A stretch of DNA of 64,000 nucleotides from Symbiodinium sp. CCMP2592 (taxonomy: Eukaryota; Sar; Dinophyceae; Suessiales; Symbiodiniaceae). Location: contig CAJNDT010002835.1 in the NCBI GenBank assembly GCA_905221615.1, forward strand, positions 685,426 to 749,425, written 5' to 3'. The notes beneath the pieces are model-generated. The model made no database searches. It saw only the letters and a list, made by a program, of their open reading frames with translations, and was not told the DNA's origin. Each line of letters opens with the position of its first letter. The first letter of the stretch is position 1. Shown piece by piece: positions 3,001-55,529 of this stretch. Made by a program: the position numbers and the translations under genes.

Positions 3001-3393
3001 AAAGACGATCTGACGCCTGCAGAAGCCCAGCAGCGCAACGATGAACAGCGCGACCGCACAAAGCATGTTGGGTCAAACCCCGATATAATTCGGGAGCACG
3101 CAGACCATCCCAATTTGATTGCCCACGTCAGGCACATCTTGGCGAACATCCTCGACGCCAAGGATGCTGGGATTCGGTCCATAGCCGTGCATGTTGTTTG
3201 CAAGGCCAACAGACATAGATCTGTTGCGGCGGGTATCCTTACCCATGCGACGCTTTTGGAGCTTGTGCCGGATTGCTCCGTCAGCCTCACTCACATGAGT
3301 GCAACGAACAGTTGGCCGTTCATGGGCAGCAAAGCGTGCAAAGGGCAGTGCCCCAAGTGTTTGCACCGCGCCTGGCATAGCCCAGGAGGTTGA
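1..3393 (+). CDS. Retroelement ORF1: gag zinc knuckle, zinc ribbons, aspartic protease-like and RapZ-C-like domains
   Basis: Frame 1 is open from the first base, so the start is upstream. A CCHC knuckle lies at 331-378 (CxxCx4Hx6C, with the GHW...GD pattern). Next comes a segment with HKG, TYE and YVLW motifs (about 709-840), then pairs of CxxC motifs (about 979-1185) that could be zinc ribbons. A retropepsin-like region has DEG at 1609-1617 where D[S/T]G is expected, followed by a PLLLSLYAQAQLG-type segment typical of Copia proteases. A low-complexity Ala/Pro/Lys linker with GHS repeats follows (about 2130-2580). The C-terminal part (about 2680-3300) carries CKANRHRSVAAG, matching the GCTGGxHRSV loop of RapZ C-terminal domains. 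It overlaps ORF2 by 95 nt, one frame apart. Gag-protease assignment is firm; the RapZ link rests on one motif plus overall layout. Confidence 0.88.
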   Translation, partial: GDGYGEEAYQATASGGDDADEWIDDEDLALQLNAYTAVAYEAEIDDLDDSYAESVQLAYAAQTAFAQAKGKGKGKNKGKSPGKSGGKVVRSNLTIADRKAKLAELKAKSRCLKCGVIGHWAGDAACKFSGKGNGSKGTATPAQSGGTANAAAKSAAPKPQAYFAAVEEDDTECVHLSNASAGRLEGYPANLELTPSKTNTGKGRGNETLFSPQLRRTAAARIMRDSPPEGSDRVFSFGQHKGLTYERVLYTYPGYVLWGRTQKCPSINLADFLDWVTEYFDVRDDNPISITRRDIPLSQEPPPEPFQPEVRLAASAASSSEGPRKCRGGCKEFNKSGSNAYIDMRTCKKCGTVTKTKKEKPVIDQATCPHTSTERSGSSRKTSRIKCKLCGMLLDEQPQTERKARDDAATVLRESNTLDFDLLRSIVGSTGDSLPVEVVVPAIAQFQETIEGHFVTEPVISRGDLLAYLQEALDDHSAPSTNNSWEVASARSRSSRASATRHAFVAFTEGVTDIHPALVDLPVVNIYEDKHVYAVLDEGCNSTVHGSDWIANAAGKLANFGYSTRFKPEGNRTFKGLSGATETLGSRTIPFSIMGLEQDLRVPGVLDSHEIKGTAPLLLSLYAQAQLGITKDLRFGECGVRLPSEDSIIRIKLCRTHDSGLLCINITEGLTQVKQPRLIKSFQIPSPPVPIFRSAAAALAHSESVSGSPRDATAADDAVATSRSHSAVDAGHGHSTVGVGHGHSFTTTAENRNNTKRRISVAFPNHCMVGTSVGDTEPTAMAAAEGQLPKKAPPTAKAAPKVLAAPEPGHSAMAKSPAVGHSAAPAGGTFSAPAPKAPPGGGLPKKAPPTEKAKPGDSPGIPPAARATVHPKEIARGHRELAEFDAVVKKDPHGRNLVIMAGGGPHGPELDTPLPASVYNPDLALQPYYAGDIANPDIIIDVFTWGYEHHAWLQRVRGKWTAAELFAQHEEMETHATTTYASATSYMLVMLDMVWLKDDRKDDLTPAEAQQRNDEQRDRTKHVGSNPDIIREHADHPNLIAHVRHILANILDAKDAGIRSIAVHVVCKANRHRSVAAGILTHATLLELVPDCSVSLTHMSATNSWPFMGSKACKGQCPKCLHRAWHSPGG

Positions 3394-6300
3394 GGAGCTT
3401 ACGAAGTCCTTCGTCGACGCCGTCCGCATAGACGGACCGGAGGACAATGAGTGCATCCTTGTCGTGGAGCCGCAGTGTGCACGCCCTGATGATCAGCCTA
3501 CATATGCTGAGCGGTTTCATGAACGCCTGCTTGCAGAGGGCCGCATACAGGCACCGGTGACGGGGGTAGGTCCCCTTGATAGGCCTCCCCTGGCAGGCGA
3601 AACCGCGTACCAGGCTGCAACCCGCATGGGGCTGGTCGGCAAGACACATACATCGTATGTGGCCAAGTTCGACCCCAACTCGCTCACTGCGGCGATGAAT
3701 CGCGCACAGGGCACAGCCCCTGGAGGACGCTTGCCTTCGGTTACCTTTAGCTCGGGTCCTAACCCTGCTAGTTCTAGCGTAGGTGCGTCAGCCAAGGGCG
3801 GAGCGGCCCCCATAGTGGGACCGAAGGACACACCGACACCGCCGCCGGCAAAGTCCGGTGGGGCACAGGACCGCGCAGCGACGCCGACAGGGTCGTCGGC
3901 TCGGATTCGCAGGCTCGAGGCCGAGGTCCACGACCTCACCGATGCGAATCGCTGCCAAGAAAGCACTATAAGTGACTTGAGAGAGGCCCTCAGCAATGTG
4001 AAGCGGCAGCGCGATAATGCGTATGATCGGCTGCAGGACATGCGCGAGAGGGCAGAAGACGCGGAACGCCGGGCCGATAGGGCCGAGGTGGAGCTTCAGA
4101 GGCTCACACGCCGCTCCAGATCGCGTCGCAGGCGGAGGGATAGTTCCTCCTCGAGCAGGGGCCATCGCCGTGACCGCACCCGAGAAAGGCGGCGAATGGA
4201 ATCCAGACCTCGGGATAGGTCCGAGGCTCCGACACGCCAACGCACCTCCCGTTGGGGTCGCGTCCGCGCCGACCCAGGCGACGACCGTGCGGATCGGGAC
4301 ACAGCTCCCGAGCGCGAGCGCATTCGTGCAGGCCGGGACACAGCTCCCGAGCGTGAGCGCACGAATCCTCGCCCCTCTGCACGGCCGGAGGTGGAGTATG
4401 AGCCCGACAAAGGCAAGGGCAAAGGCAAGGCTGCACCCCACAGTGTGTACGACGAGGTCGAGTACGACGACGGCACAGGTGCAGGTGACTGGGATCCACC
4501 GGGACCCAGGAGCAGCCTTGGAGGCAGCAGGCGCCCGCCTGAACCGCCGGAGCCACCGCGCTTCCGAGGCAGTGCTGGTTACCATAGGTTCCCAGAGCGC
4601 GAAAATCCGCACCGCCCCATGACAGCAAACGAGTCATGGTGGTACTTCCACGGCGATAGGCCGTCGGCCGAGTGGACTGACGCGGAATGGGCAGAATTCC
4701 GTCGTCAGTTCCCGAAGCCCCCAGGGCAAGGCAAGCTCGTCGAAATCGACGAGAGGATCCTGGCCATCGACGTTGGTGCCATTGGACTCAGCCCCGACAC
4801 AGGTTTCGGGTGGAACAGGCGCATCGTGTTCCAGGACTTTCCTGATGGTGTGCTGACCGCCCTATACGAGGTGATGTGCGAGAAGCAGGCGCCAGCGTGC
4901 TGGATCGGTCCATACGCACCGAGGCGGTTCTGGGCTGGTGATACAAATCACCATGAGCTAAGCGAACGGCACAACATAAAGTGCACAGTGGTTACCCGCC
5001 AAACTGGCCGTGCGTACAAGCCCACGGGGCGGCTTCGGGACATAGATCCCATTGGTTATCTTTTCTCACACCCAGATCCGGCCGACGGGTCCAGCTGGAC
5101 ATACGAAGGCACCTGCCACCCACCGGGGTCGGATACGCATCGTGTGCCCGCCGAAACTGGCGGAGCGGATCAGCCCTGTCCAGTACAGGAGCCGACCTAC
5201 GAAGGGGCCTATGTGGCACTTTGGGTCTTCCCTTTGGCGTTTGACTCAAGCACGGTGCCGCATCAGATCGAGGACACAGATGCCTTGAGTGCAGTGTATA
5301 TCCCGGGCACAGACCCGCGGGCGTCGCGCATTGCCACCTCTGCCAGCCCGGGCACAGTCCCGGAGGGTGACGTTTCACCCATGGAGGAGGACGGAGCAGA
5401 GCGCGATGCAGCATACATGGCCGTCTGCAGTGGGGAGTGGGTAGGACAAGCCAGCCAGATTTCTTTTCCAAGCCCTGATCCTCCCGAAGACCTGCCCCAC
5501 AGTAGCAGCGCAGCCTCTGGGCCCTCAGCCGCTAGCCTAAAGAAGCTTAGCAAGGCCCAGTCCAAGTACCTCACCTCAAGCCTTACCGAAATGGTAGCGG
5601 GGGACGAAGTCTTAAAGGCAATCGTGTACAACGCTGCCATGCGAGAAGCTGATCACCTGATTAGATTGCATGAACCCTCGGCACAGGTCCTCGCGAGCGT
5701 GATCAACGAGAGGCAGAACGGGCCACCGGGCCTCGTGGTTGCCAGGTTTGAGACTTCCACAGAGGAGTTGTGTTTGGAGCTTGAGTGTGTAGCCGATACC
5801 CTCAACATTCCGATCATATTGGTTACCCCGAACGGCTATCCAATGCTTGAGGACACTGTTACCTTGAGGGGAGACATGCATATCTCAGGCATAGGCCCAG
5901 AGATTGGAAAGGCTTTGGACCTCTTCCAAGCATGGTCAGAGTCTTACGGGTATATACCCCGTAGCTATGTTGATACGGATAGTACTGACTTTTGGAACCT
6001 TTGTCGTACCATTTCTGAGGAGTACTATATCAACGCATTTAGCCGAACTTGCTTTGTCGGCGACGCCCAGGACACAGATCCTGAGGACATCAGCGAAGCA
6101 GAGCTGGTGCCCGACGCTGAGATGCCTCAGCGAGGTGTCCCTGATGGGATGGACGATGCCGGTGGCGCACTGACGCCCGAGGAGAGAGAACGCCTCATTT
6201 TGGAACAATTCCCGTTTCCCGGAACTCCGAACACAGAGGCAGAGCGCCGAGCGGCGTGGAGATCGTTACCGCAACGAGTCCGGGTAGCTATAAGGCGCCT

Positions 6301-9300
6301 GCACCGATCGTTTGGCCATCTGCCAAACGCAGTCCTGATACAGGTTCTGAAGCAGGCCCGGGCGAGCAAAGATTTCATCGCCGCTGCCGGACTTTACAAG
6401 TGTAAGGTCTGCCTGGACACAGCTCCAGTGCCCAGGCACCATCCTGTCGCAGGTGATAGCGTGTTTCCAAAGGAATTCAACCATACGATAGGAATGGATG
6501 CGCTAGAGGTCAAGGACTTCTTCGGAAATCGCTATACTGCTGTCAATATAGTTGACATGGGAACCAGTTTCCAGCAAGTTGTGCTCGTGAAATCTGGGGG
6601 TGGTAACCCAAGTGCCCGCCAGTGTGTGAAATGCCTGATTGACAGGTGGATCAGCTGGGCTGGACATCCCAAAGTCATAACCACTGACAGAGGGACGCAC
6701 TTCAGGGGAGAATTTTCAGAGTATTTGGCACAGCATGGTATAATCCATAAGAACGCCCCTCTCGAGAGTCCGCAGACTATTGGAAAGGTCGAACGCCATG
6801 GTGGACTTGCTAAGGCCATCATTAGAAAAGTCGCGCAGGAGACTCAGCCCTCGAATATCGAGGAGATGGAGGCGGTCGTTACCGAGAGTGTTACTACTAA
6901 GAACGAGCTTAGTAGGCACCAAGGGTTTAGTCCAGCACAACACGTGTTGGGAAAGCAGCCTCGAACACCGGGTTCCGTGCTAGATGAATCCGAAAGTCTT
7001 GGTACATTGTTCACCAAGTATGATGAGACGAGTGTATACTACATTCGGCACAGAGCACGGCAGGAAGCCAAAAAGGCCTTTGTTCATTTAGAGACTTCTC
7101 GCAAGGTGGCCAAAGCATTACAGCGTAATGCAGCTCCTCTAGACACTGATTATAAGGTTGGTGATTTAGTTATCTACCGTCGGGACAACGTCCCTGGCAG
7201 CCCAGGAGTCGTATGGTCCACGGTTAGCCGCGTCATAGGACGTGAGGCAGAGAATGCGTACTGGGTATTACACGAGAATATCCCTGTACTTGTGAACGCT
7301 AGGAAGATGCGCCCAGCTGATGAAATCGAAGTTGCAGCGCACCGCGTTTTGGCAGGTGAACCAGTGCTTCCGGAAGCCATCGTACATGGGCCGGAACAAA
7401 GGTTCCAGGATGAGCGCGTAGCGGATCCGGTCACAGCACCAGCGACGCCACGTCCAGTGGCTGCAGCTGCCCCGCTTACACCGGCAGTCGCGCACGATGT
7501 GCCTATGCCAGCACCATCGACGCCAGCGATGATGCCCGGCACACCGATGCCAGCGCCACCTACCCCTGCAAGGTTTCGCGCCAAAGATAAGACGGGCGAA
7601 ACCGCCCGGTCGCGATCGCCAGTAGGAGGCCGTGATGACGCACTAGTTGCAGAAGAGCTTGATCAAGTAGAGATCATGGCAAAAGGCCTGATAGATGCTC
7701 AGGGTTTTTCTCCAGATGAGTGTCTGGCCCTCCTTCGCGCTTATGACCGCGACCGACGCGAGGCGTACACGCGCCCGCTCCTAGATGACGGAGATCCCGG
7801 GAGCATAGCCCTCGCGGTGGGAGTATATCGGCACGGTGGTCTTGTTGGTGTCTCTGGACCAACGCGCGAGAGACCGTCGTTCGCCATGTACCTCAACCAC
7901 TACCTCTTGCATCACAGTATGCAAGCCGGTCACCATCTTCCACAGTGGAGTAGCGTTCAGCTTACCAACAGAGGCGCAGAGGCCCATAGAGACCTAGCGA
8001 ACACTCCTGGCTCGTATAACTACACTATAGGTGTGGGCGAGTATCGTGGAGGCGGCCTATGGGTGGAAGAAGCCACGGGTACAACTCCCGTGCGTGTTCA
8101 AAACACGACAATGTATGGCACCGTCCATGATACTAAGAACAAGGTTCTTAAGTTTCGCCCGAAGGACGTGCACATGGTCGCACCGTTTGTAGGAGAAAGA
8201 TACAGTCTCTCCGCATACACGGTGAGTGACCTCGGTAAGTTGTCTAAAGATGACATACAGCTTTGGTCGGATCTAGGCTACCCCATATATAGGGATGCGC
8301 CCAACACCTTTGGCAGGAAAGGCGATGGGATATATACCATGGGTCACTCTGATCTTCCCATCGAGACGTTCCTAGAGCGCATCCACGAGTACGGGATTAA
8401 GGAAATCGTAGATTGCAGAAGCCACCCGTACAGCGTTCGGCATCCACAATACAATTGTGATGAGCTTTCTGCCACATGCTTTGCAAAAGGGGTTGTGTAC
8501 AGTCACGCCCCCGAGTTAGGCAACAGGAATCGGGGCGGGATTGAAGCCAACCTGCAAACAGACCAAGGGCTCTGTACGATCGCTAGAATAATTAGCGAGG
8601 CTCACGATGACTTTCACCGAATACTTCTGTTGTGTTCGGAGGCCAGTTGGCGGCGATGCCATCGGCGAAATATCGCCCAGCACATATGGCTCGAGCATTC
8701 GAAACTTGCGGAGCACATACGTGCTAACGGACTGCCAGAAGCCCATCCGTGTCACTACATTCCTGAGGAAGACGACGGACTGGCAGCAGCATCGCACACA
8801 GCTGCGATTGGCACGACAGTGCCAGCAGTTGAGCCCTCGGATAGTCGAGAGGCGGAATCCAAGGCCTTTGCTCTCACCCCTGATGGGGAAGACGCCTTCG
8901 GCTCTAATGTCGATGTTGGCTACATGGCCTCGCTCCTGGATTACCATAAGGCCCCTGTAGAGGTACAGCTGGGGCTGGATGCTGCCATGAAGACTGAATG
9001 GCAGAAGTACACTGAATTCAACGCAGTGGTCCCTTGCACAGACAAGGAGTTTAAGGAGCTTACAAAGGCTGGCCACGTGTGTATCCCCACCAAATGGGTT
9101 CTTACCGATAAGAATGAACACCTAAAGGGGACAGCAGCATACACTCCCAAGTGGAAAGCACGCTTGGTCGCATGTGGAAACTTCGAGCATATCTCGAATG
9201 AGGAGGATATCAGGGCAGACAGCCCCACGGCCGAGCCGGAAGGTATAGCCCTTCTGTGTTCATGGGCGGTTTCGTTGGCCCTGCGGCTCAAAGCAGCCGA

Positions 9301-9679
9301 TATAACGAACGCATACTTCCAAGGGAAACCCCTTGAGCGCCTCCTCATTCTTCGGGTTCCCAAACACCCTAAAGGTGTGCCCGATGCAGAGATTCAGCGA
9401 GCCGGGTATATGATTGCCCGAGTACCCGTGTACGGCACCACCGACGCGGGCCGGAACCTTTATCTCCGTATAAAGGAGAGTTGCCGAGAATTTGGCTTAA
9501 ATGCCTCGCAAATTCTGTCAGCCCTGTACTATATTACAGGAGAAGGTGGTCGTTTGTGCGCTTGTTTGTGCACCCATGTGGATGATTTCCTGTGGGCTGC
9601 TACCGCCGAAGGCGAGCCGGCTATCCAGAATCTGCTGGATAAGTTTAAGATCGGTCGCATAGAGACTGCACAGCGCTGA
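3299..9679 (+). CDS. Retroelement ORF2: RS-rich coiled coil, integrase, 2OG-Fe(II) oxygenase-like, DUF488-like, truncated RT
   Basis: 2126 codons in frame 2; the ATG at 3299 lies inside ORF1, so real translation probably needs a +1 shift near 3380. Residues about 195-265 form a coiled coil, followed by an Arg/Ser-rich stretch with a duplicated GRDTAPERER. Residues about 480-960 are unrecognised. The integrase has an HHCC finger (H1002, H1007, C1035, C1038) and D1067, D1130, E1165. Residues about 1500-1645 fit a double-stranded beta-helix oxygenase: HxD (1563, 1565), distal H1625, R1634. Residues about 1678-1800 match DUF488: YTMGHS, DCRSHPYS, LLCSE and CHRR. The RT has ADITNAYFQG (D2001) and HVDDF (D2095, D2096), then stops after KFKIGRIE, well before the end of the domain. 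Confidence 0.92.
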   Translation: MQRTVGRSWAAKRAKGSAPSVCTAPGIAQEVEELTKSFVDAVRIDGPEDNECILVVEPQCARPDDQPTYAERFHERLLAEGRIQAPVTGVGPLDRPPLAGETAYQAATRMGLVGKTHTSYVAKFDPNSLTAAMNRAQGTAPGGRLPSVTFSSGPNPASSSVGASAKGGAAPIVGPKDTPTPPPAKSGGAQDRAATPTGSSARIRRLEAEVHDLTDANRCQESTISDLREALSNVKRQRDNAYDRLQDMRERAEDAERRADRAEVELQRLTRRSRSRRRRRDSSSSSRGHRRDRTRERRRMESRPRDRSEAPTRQRTSRWGRVRADPGDDRADRDTAPERERIRAGRDTAPERERTNPRPSARPEVEYEPDKGKGKGKAAPHSVYDEVEYDDGTGAGDWDPPGPRSSLGGSRRPPEPPEPPRFRGSAGYHRFPERENPHRPMTANESWWYFHGDRPSAEWTDAEWAEFRRQFPKPPGQGKLVEIDERILAIDVGAIGLSPDTGFGWNRRIVFQDFPDGVLTALYEVMCEKQAPACWIGPYAPRRFWAGDTNHHELSERHNIKCTVVTRQTGRAYKPTGRLRDIDPIGYLFSHPDPADGSSWTYEGTCHPPGSDTHRVPAETGGADQPCPVQEPTYEGAYVALWVFPLAFDSSTVPHQIEDTDALSAVYIPGTDPRASRIATSASPGTVPEGDVSPMEEDGAERDAAYMAVCSGEWVGQASQISFPSPDPPEDLPHSSSAASGPSAASLKKLSKAQSKYLTSSLTEMVAGDEVLKAIVYNAAMREADHLIRLHEPSAQVLASVINERQNGPPGLVVARFETSTEELCLELECVADTLNIPIILVTPNGYPMLEDTVTLRGDMHISGIGPEIGKALDLFQAWSESYGYIPRSYVDTDSTDFWNLCRTISEEYYINAFSRTCFVGDAQDTDPEDISEAELVPDAEMPQRGVPDGMDDAGGALTPEERERLILEQFPFPGTPNTEAERRAAWRSLPQRVRVAIRRLHRSFGHLPNAVLIQVLKQARASKDFIAAAGLYKCKVCLDTAPVPRHHPVAGDSVFPKEFNHTIGMDALEVKDFFGNRYTAVNIVDMGTSFQQVVLVKSGGGNPSARQCVKCLIDRWISWAGHPKVITTDRGTHFRGEFSEYLAQHGIIHKNAPLESPQTIGKVERHGGLAKAIIRKVAQETQPSNIEEMEAVVTESVTTKNELSRHQGFSPAQHVLGKQPRTPGSVLDESESLGTLFTKYDETSVYYIRHRARQEAKKAFVHLETSRKVAKALQRNAAPLDTDYKVGDLVIYRRDNVPGSPGVVWSTVSRVIGREAENAYWVLHENIPVLVNARKMRPADEIEVAAHRVLAGEPVLPEAIVHGPEQRFQDERVADPVTAPATPRPVAAAAPLTPAVAHDVPMPAPSTPAMMPGTPMPAPPTPARFRAKDKTGETARSRSPVGGRDDALVAEELDQVEIMAKGLIDAQGFSPDECLALLRAYDRDRREAYTRPLLDDGDPGSIALAVGVYRHGGLVGVSGPTRERPSFAMYLNHYLLHHSMQAGHHLPQWSSVQLTNRGAEAHRDLANTPGSYNYTIGVGEYRGGGLWVEEATGTTPVRVQNTTMYGTVHDTKNKVLKFRPKDVHMVAPFVGERYSLSAYTVSDLGKLSKDDIQLWSDLGYPIYRDAPNTFGRKGDGIYTMGHSDLPIETFLERIHEYGIKEIVDCRSHPYSVRHPQYNCDELSATCFAKGVVYSHAPELGNRNRGGIEANLQTDQGLCTIARIISEAHDDFHRILLLCSEASWRRCHRRNIAQHIWLEHSKLAEHIRANGLPEAHPCHYIPEEDDGLAAASHTAAIGTTVPAVEPSDSREAESKAFALTPDGEDAFGSNVDVGYMASLLDYHKAPVEVQLGLDAAMKTEWQKYTEFNAVVPCTDKEFKELTKAGHVCIPTKWVLTDKNEHLKGTAAYTPKWKARLVACGNFEHISNEEDIRADSPTAEPEGIALLCSWAVSLALRLKAADITNAYFQGKPLERLLILRVPKHPKGVPDAEIQRAGYMIARVPVYGTTDAGRNLYLRIKESCREFGLNASQILSALYYITGEGGRLCACLCTHVDDFLWAATAEGEPAIQNLLDKFKIGRIETAQR

Positions 9680-9780
9680 GATCCGTTATAGGATCGCTGG
9701 CTTGGGTGGCCCGCGCCACGAGACCTGATCTTGCCTATAGCCGCACAGAATACCGAGGGTACCGAAAGCACTCCGCTTCA
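9676..9780 (+). pseudogene. Out-of-frame remnant of the RT/RNase H connection
   Basis: In frame 1 from 9676 the translation runs RSVIGSLAWVARATRPDLAYS, trimmed here to its core IGSLAWVARATRPDLAYS. This block is normally found downstream of the YVDD region in Copia polymerases. It directly abuts the end of ORF2, so the residues normally lying between KFKIG and this block are missing, showing an internal deletion with a frame change. A further single-base slip seems to follow around 9735 (QNTEGTE resumes in another frame), after which similarity fades. Confidence 0.75.
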
Positions 9781-10292
9781 CGATTGAGGAACTCAGCCTA
9801 GAGCCTTGAGTCGCCGCACTCGGCTCGGTTGACTGCGCAAGCTCCCGGTATAATCCGGTGAAGTAGGCTTGGCCCAAAGCGGCCAAAATTGGAGCATGAT
9901 TCGGACGTCACACTACAGATAAGACGGGTGTGAAATTTCCCTGTCTTGAAGCGCCGTGTTGACATGTCCTCATGCGAGCGTAGTTTTTGTGTTAGTTCTG
10001 AACGCACCCTGTACGACAGACGTCTTGGGCTCAGACCAAAAAGTGTGCTCGTTTGTGTGGTTGGACACTCACTAATCCAGTTCCTGCTTCAAAAGTTCTT
10101 TCTTGACCAGGGAAAGCCTGCATCTAGAGTGTCAATGACGATGGACCAACCTGAAAACACATGTCCTCCTTTTGTAAACAGCCGGTAAAAGAAGGGCGGG
10201 CCTAGCGCCTGCGGGGCTTAAGTCGCCCTGTAAGCCTGAGAGAAGAGGAGAGAGCGAGACACGCAGAGACAGCCAATAGGCGGACAGACGGA

Positions 10293-14250: not shown

Positions 14251-14257
14251 ACTACTA

Positions 14258-14289
<32 letters not shown>

Positions 14290-14319
14290 GCTACTACTAC
14301 TACTACTACAACTACTACA

Positions 14320-14375
<56 letters not shown>

Positions 14376-14428
14376 ACTACTCTACTCTACCACTACCACT
14401 ACCACTACCACTACCACTACCACTACCA

Positions 14429-14484
<56 letters not shown>

Positions 14485-14500
14485 GCTGCTACTGCTACTG

Positions 14501-14575
<75 letters not shown>

Positions 14576-14680
14576 GTACTCGTACTCGTGCTAGTAATGC
14601 TAGTACTAGTACTAGTACTAGTACTAGTACTAGTAGTTGTAATAATACTAGTAGTTGTAATAGTACTAGTAGTTGTTGCT
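14251..14680. repeat. Compound TAC/TGC trinucleotide array with a TAGTAC end
   Basis: The left part is TGC/TAC units, the middle is long (TAC)n with CCACTA hexamers. The right part switches through TACTCG to the palindromic hexamer TAGTAC and then to GTAGTTGT units. The strand sense of the triplet thus reverses inside the array, which would allow intrastrand pairing. The poly-Tyr, poly-Leu and poly-Val ORFs across it are artefacts of the repeat. Confidence 0.95.
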
Positions 14681-19089: not shown

Positions 19090-20913
19090 GCCTTCGCCAA
19101 GGCCGTCACAGCATGCGACGCGGCACGTGCATGGCAACATGCGCTTGCCCTGGCAGACGCCGAAGACTCGGTGGCTCCATAAACTGTGCGTTGTACGGAA
19201 CCTTATCGCAAACAGGCACATGTTGCTGCGACAGCGCAGCCGAGTAACACCTGTCCTAAGCCGCTCTAGGTTTTGATGGTTCGGCAAAGCACCACTGGCT
19301 CTGAGCCCACGAACTTCACGAGGTCATGCTGGAGCAAGGCCACGGGAAGTGCCTGGCGGGGGTGCATGCTCAAATGATGTGGTGCCGCTCGAATGGGAAG
19401 TGGAACCGTGCAGTCGGCCTGCTGCCGGTTTGCATTTAAACGACTGCCCTGCACTCGCAAACCCCGATGGCGCTACAGTATTCTCTCCGGCTTGTTTCGG
19501 AGCATGTTTAGGTATGTCGACCCAAGGGTGGTCAGCGGCTTCCCCTTGAATGTCTTGTCTTCGGTGTTACCCGTCCTTTCCCATTTCTCCTTCCGTACTT
19601 GTTCAGATTCTCTTGATTTGGCAGTCCTGGACTGTCCGACCTACACCCGCTACAGACCTTGCATGGACTTGTACGAAGCCCAAACAAGGCTCACGGTTTG
19701 GAACTTGGCATGTATATCCTCTCGGCTGCACATTGCCTCCCATATCTACTTAGGCTATCTGCCCAGTTCGTAGGATACCAGGTGCTGTTCTGATCCTGGC
19801 CCCCCGTTGGAGTGCTGGAACAAACCAAAGCCTGAATCCTTCCAACGCAGCGAGAAGGTTGCAAGACATGAACTCTCGGGAGCTTTCGCCCTCCAGCGTG
19901 ACCTATGCCCTCATCATCGCGGCATGTCGGCAGTCGAACGAATGGAGATGGCCCCTGAGGCTGGTTGCTGCACTGACCTTAGGCTGACTATACGAGCATT
20001 TGTTTGGGCGTCTTCATGACGGGTCTTTTTCTGGCTTGGACGCTGAATGGTTTGATGCGTTTCTAGCTGCGTCGTAGCTCTCACTACTTGCTTCACGCGA
20101 GGAGCTGCTGCTGATTTCCATTTCAAGTCAGCGTCAGAGCAGAGTTGCACCTCTTCAGCTGTGGCCCAGGACAGAAGAGGGCTTCCCCTTGGACACCCAC
20201 GTCTGTGGTGCAGCAGCAGGCGCTTGCCAGCAAGTGGGCCACTGGCGCTGGGCCGCATGGGTACTGGAGCAGCTTTGGGAAAGCAGGGGCAAAGGCCCCA
20301 GCACCGAAGACATCTCCTTGAATTTGGCGCTTGCCACTTGCAAAGAGGGCCGAAAGTGGCAGCAAGCACTCCACATGCTTGCAGAGGCCGGCGAGCTGGT
20401 TTGGGACGACGTGGCAGCGAGCTCCTTGATTAAAGCCCTTGGCCCGCGATGGGCCATCAGCCTTGCCATCCTCGACCTGGCCCCTGGCGGCCCTGGCGTC
20501 TCAGCCCGGGCTGCGGCCATTGCCTCCTGCACGCAGGCGCGGCAATGGAAGCAATCCTTAGCATTGATCACCGGGCAGATCGATGCAGTTGCGCTCAGTT
20601 CCGCCGTCAGCAGTTGTGCGCAGAGCACAGAGTGGCAGAGGGCCCTTGCTTTGGGGAGCAGTTATGCCAATGATGCTAATTCGTACCAAGATGGTATCCT
20701 TTGGAGCTCTCTGCTCAGCGCATGTGAACATGGGAGTGCCTGGGACCTGGCCTTGGAGCTCTTCGGGCAGATGCAGCATGCGACGGGCTTGCACCCGAAC
20801 TTAGCCGTCTTCGGGACCCTCCTGCGATCTTGCAGTGCTTCCTACCGTTGGGAGGAGGCATTGCAGCAGGCATCTTCGATGAAGGCCATGGGAGCCCAAT
20901 GCCCAAGAAGCAG
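19090..20913 (+). CDS. PPR-like repeat protein, partial multi-exon gene
   Basis: Four exons carry helix-pair repeats with the pattern of an alanine/cysteine-rich first helix followed by W..AL.L, typical of dinoflagellate pentatricopeptide proteins, which usually bind organellar RNA. Approximate exons: 19090-19160 (AFAKAVTACDAARAWQHALA after an AG acceptor), 19360-19425 (WCRSNGKWNRAVGLL), 19835-19970 (SVTYALIIAACRQSNEW) and 20186-20913. The last exon holds at least five repeats, for example LNLALATCKEGRKWQQAL, LSSAVSSCAQSTEWQRAL and LWSSLLSACEHGSAWDLAL. It ends at CAG followed by GTAAGT, a consensus donor, and the frame closes two bases inside that intron, so the gene continues downstream. No start or targeting peptide was found. 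First two exons are less certain than the last two. Confidence 0.7.
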
Positions 20914-23900
20914 GTAAGTTAGACCAACCTCTACGCCTTGGCCCATCACGTAAGAAGCGGACTCGCAGTGAAGGATCATCTTCTGACTCCGACGGCCGTT
21001 TGCACATCCGAAATTCTTGCGACTTTGGTGGCAGCCGGCCATGCTGACAGCATGCCACGACTCAGCCCTGCCATACGACCCTCGGAATACGAAAGAGATC
21101 TTCCTATCAGAACGTCGTATAATCTACCGTGATGTCTTGCTGCACGGGTTGATGTCACAACATTCACGGCAGTTGTGCTTTTATGTTGTTTTCAATACCC
21201 TGTAGAAGATGCTGCTAGGCCGTGCATGAGTATGAAGTCCGAGGCCACCTCCTTGCCCTGGCCTTGGTGACGAAAACGTGGCAGCCGCCGCTGCCACATG
21301 TGCTTGGCGCAAGCAACGTGGAATGTGTTGCAGCTTGGATGCAGTCGGGTTTGCGGAAACACACTAAGGCGCTCGACATCGGGGTGTCTGCCAACAAGAC
21401 CTTATTTTTGGCATGTTCTTTTCCGGACATGCAAGTATTCAGGTGCTGACGGAGCTTTTGGAGGGTTGGCAGTGGTGGAGCAAGCCACGCAGCAACGCGC
21501 GGGGACCTCGGCACATAAGTTGCCTACTACTGTAAGAGTATTTGCGTAATGGATGTGGAGAGTGTGCTTTTGCCTTCCATCGAACATACCCCGAGCGGCT
21601 GAGCCCTCCGTTGAAATGAAACTCTCCCACCAGCCTCCTTTGTCTGCTTCTCCCGGGCACGTGTTGTGTTGGAGGCTTTGGGCCAAACAGGCAAAATCGT
21701 TTGAACACGACCAAACCAGAGCAAGGACTTTCTAACGCATGTACGTATCGGTGCCAGAACTGGTAGCGATGAAACCTCGTAGACTTGTGTCTCTCCGTGC
21801 TGTGGGCACTGTGGGCACAGCAGCAAATCTTCCGAAGTCCGCCCAGGATGGCACGCAGCTTCCTCGCCGCAGTGCAAGCTGGGTTCCGGGCTCCGGAGCT
21901 TCCTGCTTGCCGCCGTGTGCTAGGTGGGGTGCTAGGGACATAATTGATGGAGCTTGAGAGTTGTCCCGATATATAGTCTGTGGTAGTTTGGGACGTAGCC
22001 GTGGAGCAAAGTTTTGACAGCTTCAGGCCGTGATAACTCTATTTCGGTAGGTTGTGGAGTCTTGCATCTGTAATTTTGCGTTTGCAAGGACAAGAGTCAT
22101 CGAGTCATCTTCATGATTACCAGCAGCCCACAGTCCCTAGACGGAACTTGGGACTTGTACCCTTAATGCTCATCCTGTGAGGTGCCACCTGCACCATGGG
22201 GGCAGCTTTGGTGCGGCTTCAGTGTGAAGCGTCTCATTTGGCAGGAACCAAAGCAGTGAGAAAGGTTGAGCGACTTCGGAGCACTTCGTGATTCGATTAA
22301 CTTTCTCGATGGCGGGGAAGGCCCCGAAGTCAGCGGGCTCCCATCTTGATCGCAAGTTTTGCCCGGCGGCACTCGTTGAAGTGGTTGTGGCAGTCGCACT
22401 AAGACGCAGTCGACAGACAGAAGCCATGTGAGCAATTTGTTCTCACCTAAGTCCTGAGACAGGTGCAGCGTCACGGACATGGGGTCGAGTTTTTTGGGGG
22501 CAGACTTGACATGCAGATAGGCTCTTGACAGCGCACAACAACTTTGCGAGTTTCAGTATGCAACTGGACGGCCCCACGACACTTGTGAGGCAATTCCTGC
22601 ATGGCACGGGCAGACAGAATGCCCTGTCCATGCTGTGCAGCCGGGAGGACAGGGCTTCATGAAGCCCCAAAAGACTTCATGCGCTCAGGCCAATACCACA
22701 AGGCTCCATATTGCAAGCGCATGTTCCGGCAATGGTGTCTTTGCGCTGGAAAGCCGCGCCTTGCTGCTAGACCAACTGGAGCATCCAGGTGTCGAGCTGG
22801 TGCAGACCTGCGAGTCATTCGAGCCCTCAACATGGCTCTTGATGTGTGTAGGTTGTCCATTTCAGAGTTGTTTTTACATCCTCACAAAAGGACCCTTTGC
22901 AAGCAACTTGCCTTTTTGCAGGACGCGACGCGCGAGGCATGCCGAAACTTTCCCATAAGCACCGGATTTCAAGAAGCTGGGATCAGAGTTTCGGGGTGGT
23001 GCTTCGAGACATACCACGAGGGATGACAAGAGGAGTTAATCAGGAGCACTCACCACGTTTAACAAGTCCATGTTGCTGGGACGGCTGCTGCCTGTCTGAC
23101 AACATGATTTCGATTTCTGAAAGTATGATCTTACATACTCACGTTGGGGTAGGAAGCGCAAATGGAGTTTATGGATGGGAAGCGACGTTAGCCAGCTGTT
23201 GAATAGCTCAAAGGGGAAGTTGAAGATTTCGGGCTGCACTTGGAAAATCCCATCCAAACACCGAAAGCAGATCCAGCCGACATGCGAGCCACAAGCCCTG
23301 CAGCCGTAAGCTCAACAATTGCAGACCAAAACTCAAACCCATTGTCCGAGATCAGCCCGTTGTCCGCGAGAAACCTGTGCCAGGTCTTTGCACTGTTGAT
23401 GGAGGCCCAGGTGCTGCCTTTGTGTGAGTGCATTTTTGTGGATTCTCGCATTTTCTGGGTTTTGCGAGGCCCGGATCTAAGCTCACCTCTGAGTCCCATT
23501 CTCCGCGGTGCGACTTTGTCAGCTGTGCGCGTGAGAAGAACACCTATTCTCGAGAACCGTCTTGTCGCTGATAGCCTCTTCGACAGGCCGATCCATATCA
23601 GCCGAACGCAGTTGCCGCCCTAGCTGAGCTCTATATGGAACCTGTAGCGTACTCGCCTTTGTTTGCGAGCTTCAGCGGCTCTCGAGGGAAGTACCGGGTT
23701 TTCGGGTCGCGGCCTTTCAGTCCTTGACGGCCATGAGATTCACGATGAGGGGCTTTTTTCGAAGCAGGGTAGGATTTGTACAGAAGTTGGTTGCATGTTC
23801 GGTATTGCGATTTGGCTCGGGTCGAGATGTTCCTGCTCTCTCAGGTCGCTACGATCTGAGATTTAGTAGATTCGGGGTCGTCCGTGTGAGGGCTTTCGAG

Positions 23901-24470: not shown

Positions 24471-24507
<37 letters not shown>

Positions 24508-24786
24508 CGTCGTCGTCGTAGTGGTAGTAGTTGGAGTAGGAGTAGGAGGAGTAGGAGTAGGAGTAGGAGCAGTCTTCGTCATTGTGGTGGTGGTAGTAGT
24601 AGTAGTAGCAGTAGCAGTAGTAGTAGTAGTAGTAGTAGCAGTAGCAGTAGCAGTAGCAGTAGCAGCAGCTGTAGCAGTAGCAGCAGGAGTAGTAGTAGTA
24701 GTAGTAGTAGGAGTAGTAGGAGTAGTAGGAGTAGGGGTAGTAGTAATAGGAGTGGGAGTAGGAGTGGCAGTAGCAGCGGCAGTGCG
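24404..24786. repeat. Compound AGC/AGT trinucleotide array
   Basis: Runs of AGC then AGT/GTC/AGG triplets, the reverse strand sense of the 14.3, 17.8 and 27.9 kb arrays. Poly-Val, poly-Ser and poly-Thr ORFs on both strands are by-products. Confidence 0.95.
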
Positions 24787-26867: not shown

Positions 26868-27172
26868 AAGTACTACTACTGGTACTACTACTACTACTAC
26901 TACTGCCACTGCCCTTGTCACTCCCACTGCTTCGGCTACTTGTACTACTTCTGGTGCTACTACTACTACTACTACTACTGCTACTACTGCTGCTACTGCT
27001 ACTGCTACTTTTACCGCTATTGCTACTTCTACTGCTATTACTAGTACTACTACTATGCCTCTCCCTCTGCTTTTAGTAGTAGTAGTAGTGCTACTACTAC
27101 TGCTACTGCATCTACTACTACTCCTAGTACTACTACCGTTTCTTCTACTGCTACTACTACCACCACTACCAA
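26868..27172. repeat. Compound TAC/TGC array with an internal strand reversal
   Basis: (TAC)n with TGC and ACT variants; at about 27077-27090 a GTA run sits directly before a CTA run, giving head-to-head arms. Confidence 0.92.
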
Positions 27173-27939: not shown

Positions 27940-28000
<61 letters not shown>

Positions 28001-28198
28001 TCTACCACTACCACTACTACTACCATCGCCACCACCACCACCACCACGACTACGACTACGACGACTCCTACTGCTACGCCTCCTCCTACATACTGCTAAA
28101 GCAACTGTTACTACTCCTACTCCTACTCCTCCTCCTCCTCCGCCTCCTTCTTCTGCTACTACTACTACTGCGACTTACTAACTACTACTAATACTACG

Positions 28199-28257
<59 letters not shown>

Positions 28258-28295
28258 GTACTACTACTACTACTACTACTTCTACTACTAGTACA

Positions 28296-28345
<50 letters not shown>

Positions 28346-42000: not shown

Positions 42001-44778
42001 GGACTAGGTTCCATCTCAAAGTATTGAGTCGATCCCTGTTCGCACATTCAGGAGAACAGTGATGCTCCGTCAACCGAAGCATTCCCCGTTCGTTCAAGGA
42101 AGACAACAAAGCGAAGGTGCAACATAGGATGTGGCTGACCGCGTCATAGAAAATAGTTCGCGCCGAAGCAAATGATTTTGCGAGAGTAACTGAGGTTTGT
42201 TTCTCGCAGTTGCAAAACTGCGAGCTGTCAAAACCAGACAGGTTGCACTCGTTGCCACAGATTGCGTAAGTCTAGGTCGTCGCTCGCAGCATGTGTCCAA
42301 AAGAAGTGAGAAACGCAAAAGGAATCCCCGGCGCTGTCGCTTTCAAAGCATCAGTTTGAAGGAATTCGCCAGGGTTGGCTTCCAACTCACGAAGCAAAGC
42401 ACCTGCATAATAGAAAGTGAAGGCCACCTTCTCGCGTGCATGGCACAAGTGCAAGTATAAAGCTGCATGAATGAAGCATATCGCTTTGGGACCAACAATC
42501 GGTGAGATTCGATCCGAAGATCGAAACTAGCCTACAGGAGCATCGGCCGGAAGTTTGACTTTTTCGTAAGTTTTGAGTGGCCTCTCCGATGCAAACTGCC
42601 GGGGAGCTCCAACGAAGTGACATGGGTGGTTCCTCCAGACAGTAAGTGTCTTCCTATGGGTAAAGTAGGATACAGCCTGGGACATCCACCGATGCAAGTT
42701 TGAAGCTGAGGAAAGCTTGAGGCGATCCCGGTACCGTTTCTGACGAAGCTTGCTTCCCCGCGATGCTTCGGTACACTCCAAAGTCATGCCCAGACATAAA
42801 GCTAAGCAGAGAGCTGCTTCTGTTTCACGAGCCCCCATATCAAACACCTGCCCGTGTCAAGAAGTTTGGACACTGCATTCATCTGGATGGGATTTAGCCG
42901 GCCCCAGGTTTCCAACAAGCCACGGCAGTCTAAGGTCCCACCTGTTCCAGATCAAAGCGACCCGGACTATCAGGTTCTGCGTCTCAGGCTAGTGGCAGAC
43001 TCTTGCGAGTTCATTGAGAGATGTTTACCTCAGATGTGTCGCGGTGACAGGCGTCTCAATGCCGAAAAGCGATGCCGCGAACTCCGATCGGAGCCCCGTT
43101 GACCACTTCGGTTTGTACACATCCTACAAATCTTGCTCTTGGTCGTGGTGTAGCGCTGTGGAAACATCCTCTGACCGCCACGAAGGGACTTTCAGGACTC
43201 ATATGTCGTATGCTGTCCAGCACTTGAATGAGAAAGGAGAAGGGAGTTCGTTGGCTTGTTGACCGTGTGCATTCTTCGGAAGCCTTTGCATCGAAGGAGA
43301 GGCCAACGTTCGAGTTAAAGCTGCGGAGTGCAGAAGATTTCGTCAACGCGGAGAAGCTCTACTTTCCACACAACGTGGACTTTCGAGGGCGCTGCTATCC
43401 TCTGCCGTTTCCTGCTCAGTTGACAGTAGTCGATAGTTTTGCGAGCAGGGGTTTGGAAGTTCGGGCCGGAACTGAGGCCGCACCTGAATCACATGGGGGA
43501 CGATGTCAGCCGCGCATTGCTGATGTTCTCGGATTCCAAGCCTTTGGGGAGCGAAGGTCTTTTCTGGTCGAAGGTAGGCATAGCCAACCTGCATGGCAAG
43601 AACAAGATCTCGCTCGAAGACCGGGTGAGATGGGTTGACAACCGCAAAGACATCATCATGCAGGCCTGGTTTCTTTCTGGAGTGTAGAGGAGGAGGAGTC
43701 GTTTGGATCCTTCGGCCAGGTTGCCGAAAATCCGTTGAGCCCAGAAAGCATCGAGCACTGGGCTGATGCAGATGATGGGTCGTGGTCCAAGGCATTCTTC
43801 TTGGCAGACTCGAGCTCTCCCGTTACGAACTTGAGGCCGTGGCAGGTTCTGGCTCGCTACTTGGAGCTCGCCGAAGTCTACAGACGGCCAGGGTCTGAAG
43901 AGGCACTGGGCCCGGGATCGCTCTGCCAGCTGTCGAAGTAAATACTCGTAAGCACAACGTCCACGAGCCAGGAGTTCAGAAGCCACCTGCCAGTGCACGT
44001 CGACGGGTCCTGCAACGGTCTTCAGTAGATGTCTCAGAGAGGACATGGCTAAGCATTGCTGGACAGCAGTTGTGGCCATCCTCCCTTGCTAGCTGTGGCT
44101 GGCACAGTCGCAATGGGCTGTGCGATGCTGCTGATCGCCCGAGGCACTATGCAGCATTGGGGCGTGATCTCGCAGGTGGGGAGGCCGGCTTGGATGCGGG
44201 GCAGCATGGGGCAGCCATGTACAGCTGGAACTTAAATCGTGACTAGCGGCAGCGGAGATCCAAAGCCAATTCGAGTGCACAATTCAGATCAGTCCGGGAG
44301 GATGCTAAAAAGCTGTCATGGTTTCGTGGCAACTGAGGCTGTGAACTTGACGCCAAACGACAAGCCCCAGGACGTGTACACAGTTGTGTTGAAGATTGTC
44401 ATAGACAAGGTCTGCTGCCTGATTAACCACTGCGCTGTGGAAACCCTCTGCACTCCCGATTGCTTTGCCTTTTCCAATGCATCAACCTGCAATGCAAAGT
44501 CCTACGAGGTCAACGCCGATGCTGCATTGCCCGTCCATGTCCAGACAGCTTGGCCCTCAGTCTGCATTTCTTTTGGCTTTGTTTCGGTCGTGCAGCCTGC
44601 TCAGCTGCAGGAAGCCGAAGAAGGCCGTCCTCTGAGCCACGACAAGGGACGCCTTGCTCGAAGGCTTCTGGAACTCGGCATACTGCAGCGCAAGGCGGGA
44701 AGGACCTGGACCATCGGTACCTGGTAACAGCGCGTTGCGCAGGTTGTGAAGCAAACCATCATGACCATCTGCTACGGT
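36100..44778 (+). CDS. POLRMT: Phage-type (mitochondrial) RNA polymerase, N-terminal to palm exons
   Basis: Single-subunit T7-like polymerase, expected to transcribe mitochondrial DNA. N-terminal exons, approximate: 36100-36205 (QREERASHALEDVHQQL), 36385-36590, 36985-37385 (LWMPWVEAMANVL ... ELLAIITCQNVLNLLM), 38430-38540 (IGAALVDLLID). Then 39330-39520 (MQPMVIPPLPW, FVRTTSEQ), 39628-39750 (LGRVPWRINGRIL) and 42890-43110. Catalytic exons: 43255-43400 (YFPHNVDFRGRCYPLP), 43470-43675 (RPHLNHMGDDVSRALL), 43690-43890. The exon ending at 44024 holds VHVDGSCNGLQ, with the metal-binding Asp at 44001-44003; 44144-44183 HYAALGRDLAGGE; 44338-44409 VNLTPNDKPQDVYT; 44611-44694; 44743-44778 VVKQTIMTICYGVT. 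Junction phases agree, e.g. Gln split as CA|G across 44025-44143. The rest of the protein lies at 53.5 kb. Confidence 0.88.
36841..36981. repeat. (TA)n, TATG and (GT)n compound microsatellite
   Basis: TA run, then TATG/TGTATG units, ending in a pure GT run just upstream of a polymerase exon; lies in an intron. Confidence 0.95.
40170..41640 (+). repeat. Degenerate TTTAGGG-rich tandem repeat inside a polymerase intron
   Basis: About twenty diverged units of 50-70 bp, each starting near TTTAGGGTTTG or TTCAGGGTTTG and continuing GCTGCCCATCG-like then a T/C-rich run. A higher-order copy exists: GTTGTGAGTTGTGCCA occurs at about 40721 and 41078, and TTTCCGGTGC followed by TTGCTGCGCAGCT occurs near 40809 and 41195. 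Composition is T-rich on the + strand and differs sharply from the flanks. TTTAGGG is the telomere word of plants and many algae, but here it is interspersed, not a tandem telomere array. Confidence 0.75.
41641..42889. other. Intronic or unassigned sequence of the polymerase gene
   Basis: No further polymerase motif was found here. A near-duplicate of CTTAAGAAG followed by TTTCCC occurs twice around 41811-41850. Confidence 0.4.
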
Positions 44779-45800: not shown

Positions 45801-48800
45801 ATGTCAACCATAGATGATGCCGCTGGGCTGCTGCGGGATGCGGAGTGGCACATAGATGAAGAGGTGCAAAGTCTGTCTAAGCAGAAAGCTGTGACGTCGT
45901 TGGTCCTGTACTGAATGCAGGAGAGCCAGCTGGCAGAGCAGAAGGCGCAGAAGGCGTTAAGCATCCTCCGAGAAAACTCCCAGGATTCACCAGGCGCCTG
46001 CGACAAAATTGTCTCAAGTTGTGGTGAAAGCTGGGTAAGCTGTCAAGGTCCTGCAGATGCTGTCCGGATGCTGGCCTTGGCTTGTCCGCGGCCTAGTGCG
46101 GCCGTAGTCAGAGCCACTTGCAGATGGCGCTGAAGTGTTTCTAGTCTTCGAAGAATCGTGGCCAGTTTCCTGATATAATTACATTATCTCGTCGTCTTCG
46201 CTCATCGGAATCATCATCAAATCATCCTCTGCATCAGAACTCATTAGTTTGTTGTAGTTTTCTTTTAATCGTTTTGGGGACGGTTGGCGCCCTTTCCGCG
46301 GCCCTTTTGCGCCAAACGATGAAACAACAATGAAACATGATAAACAGCTTCCAAGGCTCCCCGAAGGCCTTCCTGATTTTGCGAACATCGAAGGAGTCCC
46401 ACGCGGCCTTTCCCCGGCTCTTGTCCGCCAAAAGATGAGCAGATGAAAAATGGTAAATTACATGAGAACAAAGTTATACTAAAATGATAATTAAAACTGT
46501 AAGATATGAAAATGGCAATGGTGATGAAACGATGAGTTGATGACGATCAGAAGGATGTTTTTCGAGATATTGATTCACGCAGGCCATGCCAGTCTATTCA
46601 CGCAAGACTCGTAATTCTAGTTGAATCCGGGCTGTGCACTTCAAGTATCTGCTGACACTTTGGTGGCACGTCGTGAACGGGAAAAGCATTCCTTATCCAT
46701 AATATGAATATTTGAAGATGTGGGTGAGGTTCAGCCAGAGGCGACCGCAAAGCTGGCCTCGGTTTGTTGGCACAAGAGCTTTCTCGAGATGGTTGCAGCC
46801 ATCGGCAGAGAGTGCATCGGCTGCGAAGTCAGATGGGATTTCAGTTTGAGTTGAGCGTGGTGGCATTCTTTCCATTGTGAGGCTGTTCTGCGTTTGGCCT
46901 TCGCGGAGATTGCCAATTCACGTTGTGGCAGCAAGCGCCGAGAAGAGGCGCTGGAGGCAGCTCTGGAGGCTGTGAAGACCTTCAGAGAGCTGGGAGAGCC
47001 GCGGCTCGAGGCGGGGGAGCGCATTAGATCGGCAGAGCAAGCATGTATGGCAATCAAGATGCGCAGCAGCTGTGTTGCGCTCTGGCAGGGATGGGCATTG
47101 ATTGCATTAGCTCACACCCATGTCCAGAAAGGCAAGGCGCAAGTGTCTGTCCTTGGAGCACGGTAACGGACTAGCATGATTCCGCTCGCACAGGCACGAA
47201 AAGCGAAGTGCCTGAAGAGTTAACGAAAGCTCTGGAAGCAGCGGCGCAAGCGCAAGTTGTTCTCCGAGAGGTTGGTGACAGAGTAGGCTGGGGCTTCAAA
47301 AGCAATCGCTGCTTTCTTCAGCATATGTAAAAGACTGAGAAGACCATTGTTGCCTCTCAGGTGAAGGAAAGGCCATGCACACCACAGCCGTCGCTTGAGC
47401 GATTAGTCTCAGCTTTTTTTTTGTTGCATTATTGTAGTGGATCTAAACAGAACCCTTGCTCGTCCGATCTACTTGATACCCAATAACGCCACAGGAGGCT
47501 CCTAAGGCAGGACGAGATTCATGGCTTGTTGTGAACTTGTTTCAATTTTCTGTTGCATCTCATCGCATCTCGTGGGTTTGCGAGTGGTGATTTGCAGGGC
47601 ATGTGGGCGCGAACCACTCCCGCAAACAAGCCAGCAGGGTTGTAGAAGGTGCTGGACCCGTGCTTGATCTGATAGGGTTCGAAGAAGGTGAACAAATTGA
47701 AGCCACCTTGCCCACCTGGGCCCCAAAGACCATGTGCTGACGGCTGAGCAATCTTTACATGCCACCTCTTTGTAGAAGGCGAGCTAAGGCAGCTAAGAGT
47801 GGAACAAGTGCTCCGGCATGTACTGTTCAGTTTGTGTCCTGGCGTTGACTGCGCCAGGTCGCCCTTTCCTTTCAGAACAACATTGACGAGGCAGTTGCCA
47901 GATCTAGAGAGCTGGTGTCATACTGGCGTGACCTTGGCTACACGCGCCTGGAGGCTGGGTGCCAGTCAGGGATGCTAGCTGGAAGGGTCTTCTGTTGGTA
48001 TGGGCAGAAGAGCATCATGTTGCACAGTCGTGGTCGCAGGCATTCCAGCAGGAGTGTGTGAGTGAGTGGGAGCTGGTGCGTCACAGGCCGGAGGAGGCAG
48101 GTGACAAGCAAGTGTAGCCATGACTTCCTAGTATGCAGTTAGCTGTTCGGTCATGTGACGGGGCACGGCAGCTGGCATCATTGTCAGGCACTCGAAGCCG
48201 CTCAAGCTGCCCTAGAGCAAAAAATGCAGAGGGAAGCCCAGCGACAAGCCCAAGTGGACCCCGTTCCTGCCAGATCTGCAGCAGCGCTTATCCATGCCTC
48301 AAATGCATACCTTACGATGGGAAAGACTGATGAAGCCCTAAAGCTGTCTCAAGAGCGACTGGAGACATTTCGACGGAACAGAGATTTCGAGAGCGAGATC
48401 GTCGCGCAGTCCTCCATCGTCTCTGTGTACGTGAACTCTGGGCGATTGCGGCAAGCTGCGGAGGTGGCTGAGGAGACGCTGCGCAAAGTCCAAAGTCGAC
48501 CGTCTTCCAGGCTCTTGAAATGCTGGGAGATCGATTTGCTGCAGACGCTGGCCAAGATCTACCTGAGGGCAGAGGATGTGGAGAACGCAGAAAAGATCGT
48601 CGACCAGACGATTGCAGTTGCCAGCGAGCAGAAGGACACAACAAAGCTAAGCTTCTTCATAATTGAGTCGCTTCGTCGCTACTCGCAGCTGCTCTCGCAG
48701 CTGCTTCCGTGCAGGACCGGAAGTCCCTGGCCGCGGCCTACTTGCTTCAGAGCGAGCTGGCCCTGCTGAGAAAGGAAAACCGCCTTGGACTGAAAGCGGC

Positions 48801-55481: not shown

Positions 55482-55529
55482 ATTTTGTCAGCGTGAGTTG
55501 CTTCACGCTCCTGATTGAACCACTTGGTC

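Follow-up and report, generated by a model that had tools for sequence, protein, structure and literature searches.

The window, a 64,000-nucleotide stretch of the Symbiodinium sp. CCMP2592 genome, carries on its forward strand an open Copia-type polyprotein frame of 2126 amino acids (positions 3299..9679), which is truncated within the reverse transcriptase. On the same strand this frame encodes an integrase core (rve; residues 1061-1153, 6479..6757; PF00665, E 1.6e-4, under the curated cut-off), a predicted 2-oxoglutarate (2OG)/Fe(II) oxygenase domain of TET/JBP-like type (7799..8230), a DUF488 domain (PF04343; residues 1688-1794, 8360..8680) and a reverse transcriptase (RVT_2; residues 1925-2101, 9071..9601; PF07727, E 1.1e-10). 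The integrase region (residues 988-1210) also matched an IS481-type transposase model of NCBIfam with an E-value of 1e-14, likewise under its cut-off. Integrase upstream of RVT_2 in a single frame is the order that defines Ty1/Copia elements, the integrase model scoring below its cut-off. In the element family of the window, the oxygenase domain sits between integrase and reverse transcriptase, with DUF488 directly downstream. Around the break in the reverse transcriptase (9640..9801, forward strand), the frame ends at 9679, while a Copia-like sequence, SVIGSLAWVARATRPDLAYS, which we take to be the usual tail of a Copia reverse transcriptase, continues briefly in another frame. The window copy is therefore a broken one, and a self-comparison of the 64-kb window gave no direct repeats flanking it.

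Elsewhere in the window, sequences at 43228-43638 and 53918-54490 resemble by eye a phage-type (mitochondrial) RNA polymerase and are perhaps exons of a host gene. Frames resembling PPR, TPR, acyl-carrier and papain-type protease proteins, also by eye, were seen at 20078-20917, 48143-48769, 51383-52249 and 55515-56492. Long tandem arrays based on trinucleotides are located at 14251-14632, 24472-24773, 26871-27169 and 27940-28345.

The initial annotation had read the region between integrase and reverse transcriptase as a 2OG-Fe(II) oxygenase-like domain, on the basis of four residues. In the 2126-residue frame these were found at the positions claimed, between integrase and RVT_2: H1563 and D1565 of an HxD motif (7985..7993; the codons start at nucleotides 7985 and 7991) and the distal H1625 (8171..8173) as predicted Fe ligands, and R1634 (8198..8200) as the predicted 2-oxoglutarate-binding arginine. 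The same layout, taken as H-x-D followed after 50-75 residues by a His and after 7-12 more by an Arg, is present two times in the actual polyprotein; 2000 shuffled versions contain it 1.1 times each on average. Since 66.7% of the shuffled polyproteins contain it at least once, it proves nothing by itself, and this part of the original argument had to be given up. With GG(x)L added, 3.0% of the shuffles still fit, and with HxVxP added none of the 2000 does, but both patterns were defined post hoc from the sequence. What lifts the motif above chance, and on which the 2OG-Fe(II) reading now stands, is the conservation of the residues in relatives together with the profile tests.

For the identification of copies, the window's own genome (1,098,105,373 bases in 5383 contigs) was searched with a 347-residue piece comprising the oxygenase and DUF488 domains. 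This gave 4411 first-look candidates, and each of the 117 that were scored covers the full piece at 97-100% identity without a stop; 23 of them lie within open frames of 3,920-3,939 amino acids, known by frame length alone. Diverged elements were found via RVT_2 (150 scored of 5766 candidates), and the upstream 2.5-kb stretches of 16 were fetched. A homologous oxygenase domain was present in five (L111, L114, L115, L117 and L119), while pattern and visual inspection did not reveal the domain in the other 11. Seven out of ten further stretches, picked as likely relatives, also carry it (tblastn with the window's domain, E 3e-15 to 6e-28). In these further stretches the domain lies, by eye, upstream of what looks like the zinc-finger region of the integrase, unlike in the window's family. 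The domain is not peculiar to the Copia polyprotein of the window, as other retroelements of the genome carry it as well.

Other arrangements were also observed. In L134, L135 and L140 an oxygenase-like domain apparently precedes, by eye, an RT-like start and not an integrase. L130, L131 and L132 represent another, apparently multi-copy element type, in which a further piece follows the TET/JBP-like domain. Its strings PPCGTASRARE and ENPANSHFW in L130 look to us like those of a C5 cytosine methyltransferase; this reading of the L130 piece found no support in Pfam or PDB.

Two alignments were used for the subsequent comparisons. The first, A3, consists of the window domain and ten diverged relatives at 25-34% identity to it, and all 11 rows contain the H, D, H and R. 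The second, A4, comprises 20 sequences, with the near-copies L124, L125, L131 and L136 and, for frame trouble, L138 omitted. The columns H63, D65 and H125 of A4 (H1563, D1565 and H1625 in the window) are invariant in 20/20, as is N68, corresponding to N1568 (8000..8002), an asparagine five residues past the first His. The ligands are among ten invariant columns, and the arginine (R134; R1634 in the window) is kept in 18/20, L134 and L135 having Lys at this site beside a small insertion.

PF13640 (2OG-FeII_Oxy_3) was the sole Pfam match in nine out of ten trimmed window constructs (E 0.023-0.037). Of the 98 positions in the model, the match begins at 12 or 13 and ends at 95 or 96; its score of 15.4-16.1 bits lies below the curated cut-off of 27 bits. 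Counting every construct containing the domain, a 2OG match was obtained in 10/16; the whole polyprotein and the longer constructs matched no 2OG family in Pfam. Ten scrambles of the domain (nine shuffles and the reverse) gave no match to any 2OG family in Pfam. Four of them matched other Pfam families at E 0.054-0.15, so the single-sequence E-values are little above noise. PF13640 is nevertheless the family expected before the search, and the match extends over nearly the whole model.

An HMM-HMM comparison, named in the initial annotation as a check of the 2OG reading, came out in its favor. Against 23 PF13640-type enzymes (seven host proteins from the same genome and 16 phage or bacterial ones), hhalign returned a probability of 93.9% for A4 and 91.5% for A3; the residues H, D, GG-L, H and R line up. 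In the controls for A4, none of 200 column shuffles scored as well (best 29.8 versus 48.6) and the reversed profile reached 0.1%. A narrow profile of the 16 phage and bacterial enzymes gave 7.5 bits against the window domain, over a short piece only. Of 20,000 shuffles, 18,522 received a score and 18 of these reached 7.5 bits; among 589 window frames the highest score was 3.9 bits. The result is not decisive. Single-sequence AlphaFold2 prediction of the window domain yielded no usable model (mean pLDDT 33). With the single sequence, phmmer found nothing relevant in PDB, and PHROGs and NCBIfam gave no 2OG family. The phage and plasmid collections contained no relative of the oxygenase domain, only DUF488 or noise, and several scans of viral contigs, one of them with E. 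coli YbiX, and one genome-contig scan retrieved no relative. Taken together, the presence of a 2OG-Fe(II) oxygenase domain in the Copia polyprotein is well supported at the level of sequence comparison. In two host PF13640 proteins, L069 and L074, the distal motif (HRVTPLFIGERWSL; GGGLRIW...VTSGERWVLVVF) resembles that of the element, and these could be possible donors.

The closest family was sought with the Tet_JBP model, PF12851. Its whole-genome search (limit E 10) produced 155 candidates; 150 were scored and gave 148 matches, of which 30 are at E <0.01 and four at <0.001. The best reached 2.2e-4 (29.6 bits) and none scored above the cut-off. Many of these matches have repeated scores and long frames, as expected of multi-copy elements. 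Among 14 control genomes a match was found in one, under the cut-off. All 12 PF12851 places that were fetched belong to the family of the window's domain, with best tblastn E-values per locus of 1e-12 to 2e-35 against A3 members, a small set. PF12851 also matched nine out of nine constructs (six loci) containing the domain, at E 2.3e-7 to 8e-3 (single-locus values 2.3e-7 for L130 and 5.6e-6 for L132). As the best score in a relative is 30.6 bits versus a curated cut-off of 34.9, the domain is named TET/JBP-like and not a member of the family. The window domain itself gave no PF12851 match in whole-frame or trimmed Pfam searches. Among the sequences not chosen by the Tet_JBP model, PF12851 was matched in one out of six in one search, window included, and in two out of ten constructs, both of L111, in another.

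Against PDB, the A4 profile matched the JBP1/TET-domain protein 8jkk (E 0.058), CcTet 7vpn (0.061) and then TET2 (5d9y, 4nm6 and 9hxv; 0.52-0.53), all weakly; TET/JBP proteins make up five of the eight sequences listed, including the first four. In all of these structures the HxD region aligns, and the HrDlhN of the profile falls on the HRDLHN of TET2, pairing N1568 with its asparagine. In 7vpn and 8jkk the distal His and GER align too, in a second piece scoring near zero, while the remaining parts of TET2 were not found in the element domain and similarity is very low. The 11-sequence A3 profile showed no TET among the matches listed, and with a 6-sequence profile, A2, 8jkk came second (E 2.1) after an unrelated protein. 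Because L130-L141 were picked with the Tet_JBP model, neither their Pfam E-values nor the results of A4 can count as independent of it; the genome-wide PF12851 E-value (2.2e-4) and the A3 results are. On balance, the sequence comparisons lean towards TET/JBP as the nearest family. We consider it somewhat probable that residues about 1501-1644 form a 2OG/Fe(II) oxygenase domain of the TET/JBP-like base-oxidase kind within retroelement polyproteins.

The main competing explanation is a 2OG oxygenase that acts on protein in the manner of prolyl hydroxylases, for example on the capsid of the element or on a host silencing factor. The core of the window domain finds PF13640 but not PF12851 in Pfam, the enzymes chosen for hhalign are PF13640 types and align well, and the HxVxP...R pattern is similar to that of prolyl hydroxylases. 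However, those relatives that have any Pfam 2OG match give PF12851 only, the PDB list of A4 is headed by TET proteins with no prolyl hydroxylases in the lead, and the HRDxHN with its invariant asparagine is TET2-like. A protein substrate is therefore considered rather unlikely. Between the two families that had been proposed at the outset, the choice of TET/JBP over prolyl hydroxylase is favored by the relatives and by the A4 matches in PDB, but not by the window core.

The 30 top copies by protein score among the 117 scored of the 4411 candidates, all young, contain 60 synonymous versus 13 non-synonymous variants over 347 codons, a low pN/pS that is biased downward by this ranking; all 30 retain both the ligands and the motif of DUF488. 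Twenty older copies were fetched through DUF488, and 11 with the frame open across the domain were compared with the window (L084, L085, L087, L088, L093, L098, L099, L100 and L101 being left out). These gave pN/pS ratios of 0.08-0.21 at pS 0.04-0.39. This shows that the stretch of oxygenase and DUF488 is under purifying selection. A ligand is altered in four of the 20 older copies (L085, L086 and L088 at H1625; L089 at R1634), as expected of dead copies, and some of the 20 do not span these residues. Loss of HxD...H...R in most related copies, which the initial annotation had regarded as fatal to its reading, was not observed, neither in A3 and the young copies, where all are kept, nor in A4, where only the arginine varies.

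The same data bear on the idea of a catalytically dead or structural 2OG relic, kept for the fold of the polyprotein, e.g. for particle assembly or the tethering of integrase to reverse transcriptase. Its location in a polyprotein, its varying placement between elements and the altered ligands of some older copies would agree with such a role. A dead scaffold would not need to keep precisely the ligand residues, though, and these are invariant across the 20 sequences, or nearly so for the arginine, which makes this explanation improbable. A chance motif in a non-2OG domain, suggested by the frequency of the layout in shuffles and the weak single-sequence Pfam match, is largely refuted and very improbable given the ligands conserved in A3 and A4, the PF12851 matches genome-wide and in relatives, the A4 matches in PDB and the hhalign result.

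DUF488, directly downstream, was missed by the initial annotation. The family is mostly prokaryotic. PF04343 matched with an E-value of 6.9e-12 in the whole frame and 2.3e-14 in the isolated domain (54.5 bits versus a cut-off of 22.2), so that by its score the window domain is clearly a full family member. Its C-x-E (C1779, E1781) and C-H-R (C1787-H1788-R1789), five residues in total, are invariant in nine aligned proteins, one being that of the window and the other eight coming from bacteria, archaea and phages. At least 150 DUF488 places exist in the genome, and 20 out of 20 fetched match the window's element family; DUF488 appears here fused into a single Copia family. Titles of papers using the name DUF488 contained no description of its function. 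In plasmid and phage records, repair-type genes neighbor DUF488 in four out of seven cases, while none were seen in the other three. These neighbors include, depending on the record, a DNA-3-methyladenine glycosylase, a uracil-DNA glycosylase family protein, an SOS-response peptidase, or a RuvC-like resolvase together with an ssDNA-binding protein. From these seven records a tie to DNA repair may be suspected.

Several transposon-borne enzymes of related kinds have been described. In fungi, DNA transposons and Helitrons likewise encode a 2OG enzyme of TET/JBP type, spread over several lineages of elements (Kojima 2025, PMC12730594); in the present case the domain is part of Copia-type polyproteins, one family of which also has DUF488. 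Ty3/Gypsy elements of Phalaenopsis (PMC9289625) are also LTR retrotransposons with an added 2OG domain, an AlkB-type 2-ODD with m6A RNA demethylation in vitro. They differ in that the domain is an additional frame in Gypsy, belongs to the AlkB family and is found in one orchid genus; in the survey of that paper, 15 out of 15 extra domains were in Gypsy and none in Copia. Dinoflagellate retroelements have likewise captured a base-modifying enzyme in the DNMT retrotransposons of Symbiodinium and charophytes (PMC5890265). These are, however, methyltransferases in LINE and DIRS elements, Symbiodinium Copia being said there to lack a DNMT domain. Copia elements are described in it as the most abundant Symbiodinium retrotransposons. 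The main text of that paper does not mention dioxygenase, oxygenase or TET. A later paper, PMC12344493, refers to DNMT3-bearing elements of the Copia and DIRS types in streptophytes and dinoflagellates. In the dinoflagellate Breviolum, most repeats show enrichment of 5-hydroxymethyluracil (5hmU), and one of the least accessible is Copia (PMC11071213). Among the titles and abstract openings listed, mostly from outside subscription journals, none places a 2OG or TET/JBP domain within a retrotransposon of a dinoflagellate. Relative to the transposon-borne 2OG enzymes already known, a TET/JBP-like domain in Copia-type polyproteins can provisionally be considered new.

Under the preferred reading of a TET/JBP-like base oxidase, the domain would hold Fe(II) by H1563, D1565 and H1625 and 2-oxoglutarate by R1634, within a fold predicted to be that of 2OG enzymes. 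N1568, invariant among the relatives, would be directed at the target base like the asparagine of HRDLHN in TET2, a base-contacting residue. The enzyme would then probably oxidise the methyl group of a pyrimidine (thymine or 5-methylcytosine) in element cDNA or in DNA at the insertion site. Such oxidation could alter the silencing or repair of the element by the host, perhaps to the benefit of the element, and in the window's family the adjoining DUF488 might act on the same substrate or product. The conserved ligand residues, the selection and the family resemblance are what the sequences directly support; the fold, the binding of metal and cosubstrate, the substrate and the benefit are matters of inference, as is the editing of DNA, RNA or protein by an element-borne domain, which the initial annotation had thought plausible. 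A dinoflagellate enzyme making 5hmU (5-hydroxymethyluridine) reportedly has a role in silencing transposable elements, going by the title of a 2024 PNAS paper of Li and co-workers. If 5hmU silences elements, a hydroxylase of their own might target 5-methylcytosine instead, carry 5hmU to a more oxidised state, or act as a brake on the element that encodes it.

We tentatively propose, as a possibility well short of probable, that these retrotransposons supply their own TET/JBP-like hydroxylase of thymine (or 5-methylcytosine), which in one family is linked to DUF488 as a partner. New element DNA could thereby be born with, or stripped of, the oxidised bases used by the host to mark and silence repeats, and the elements may have helped to spread 5hmU through dinoflagellate genomes. 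A TET/JBP-like domain in Copia would link the 5-hydroxymethyluracil mark to the parasite as well as to the host. It would also extend transposon-borne TET/JBP enzymes from fungal DNA transposons to retrotransposons and provide DUF488 with a testable partner. An element of this kind might chemically mark its own DNA.
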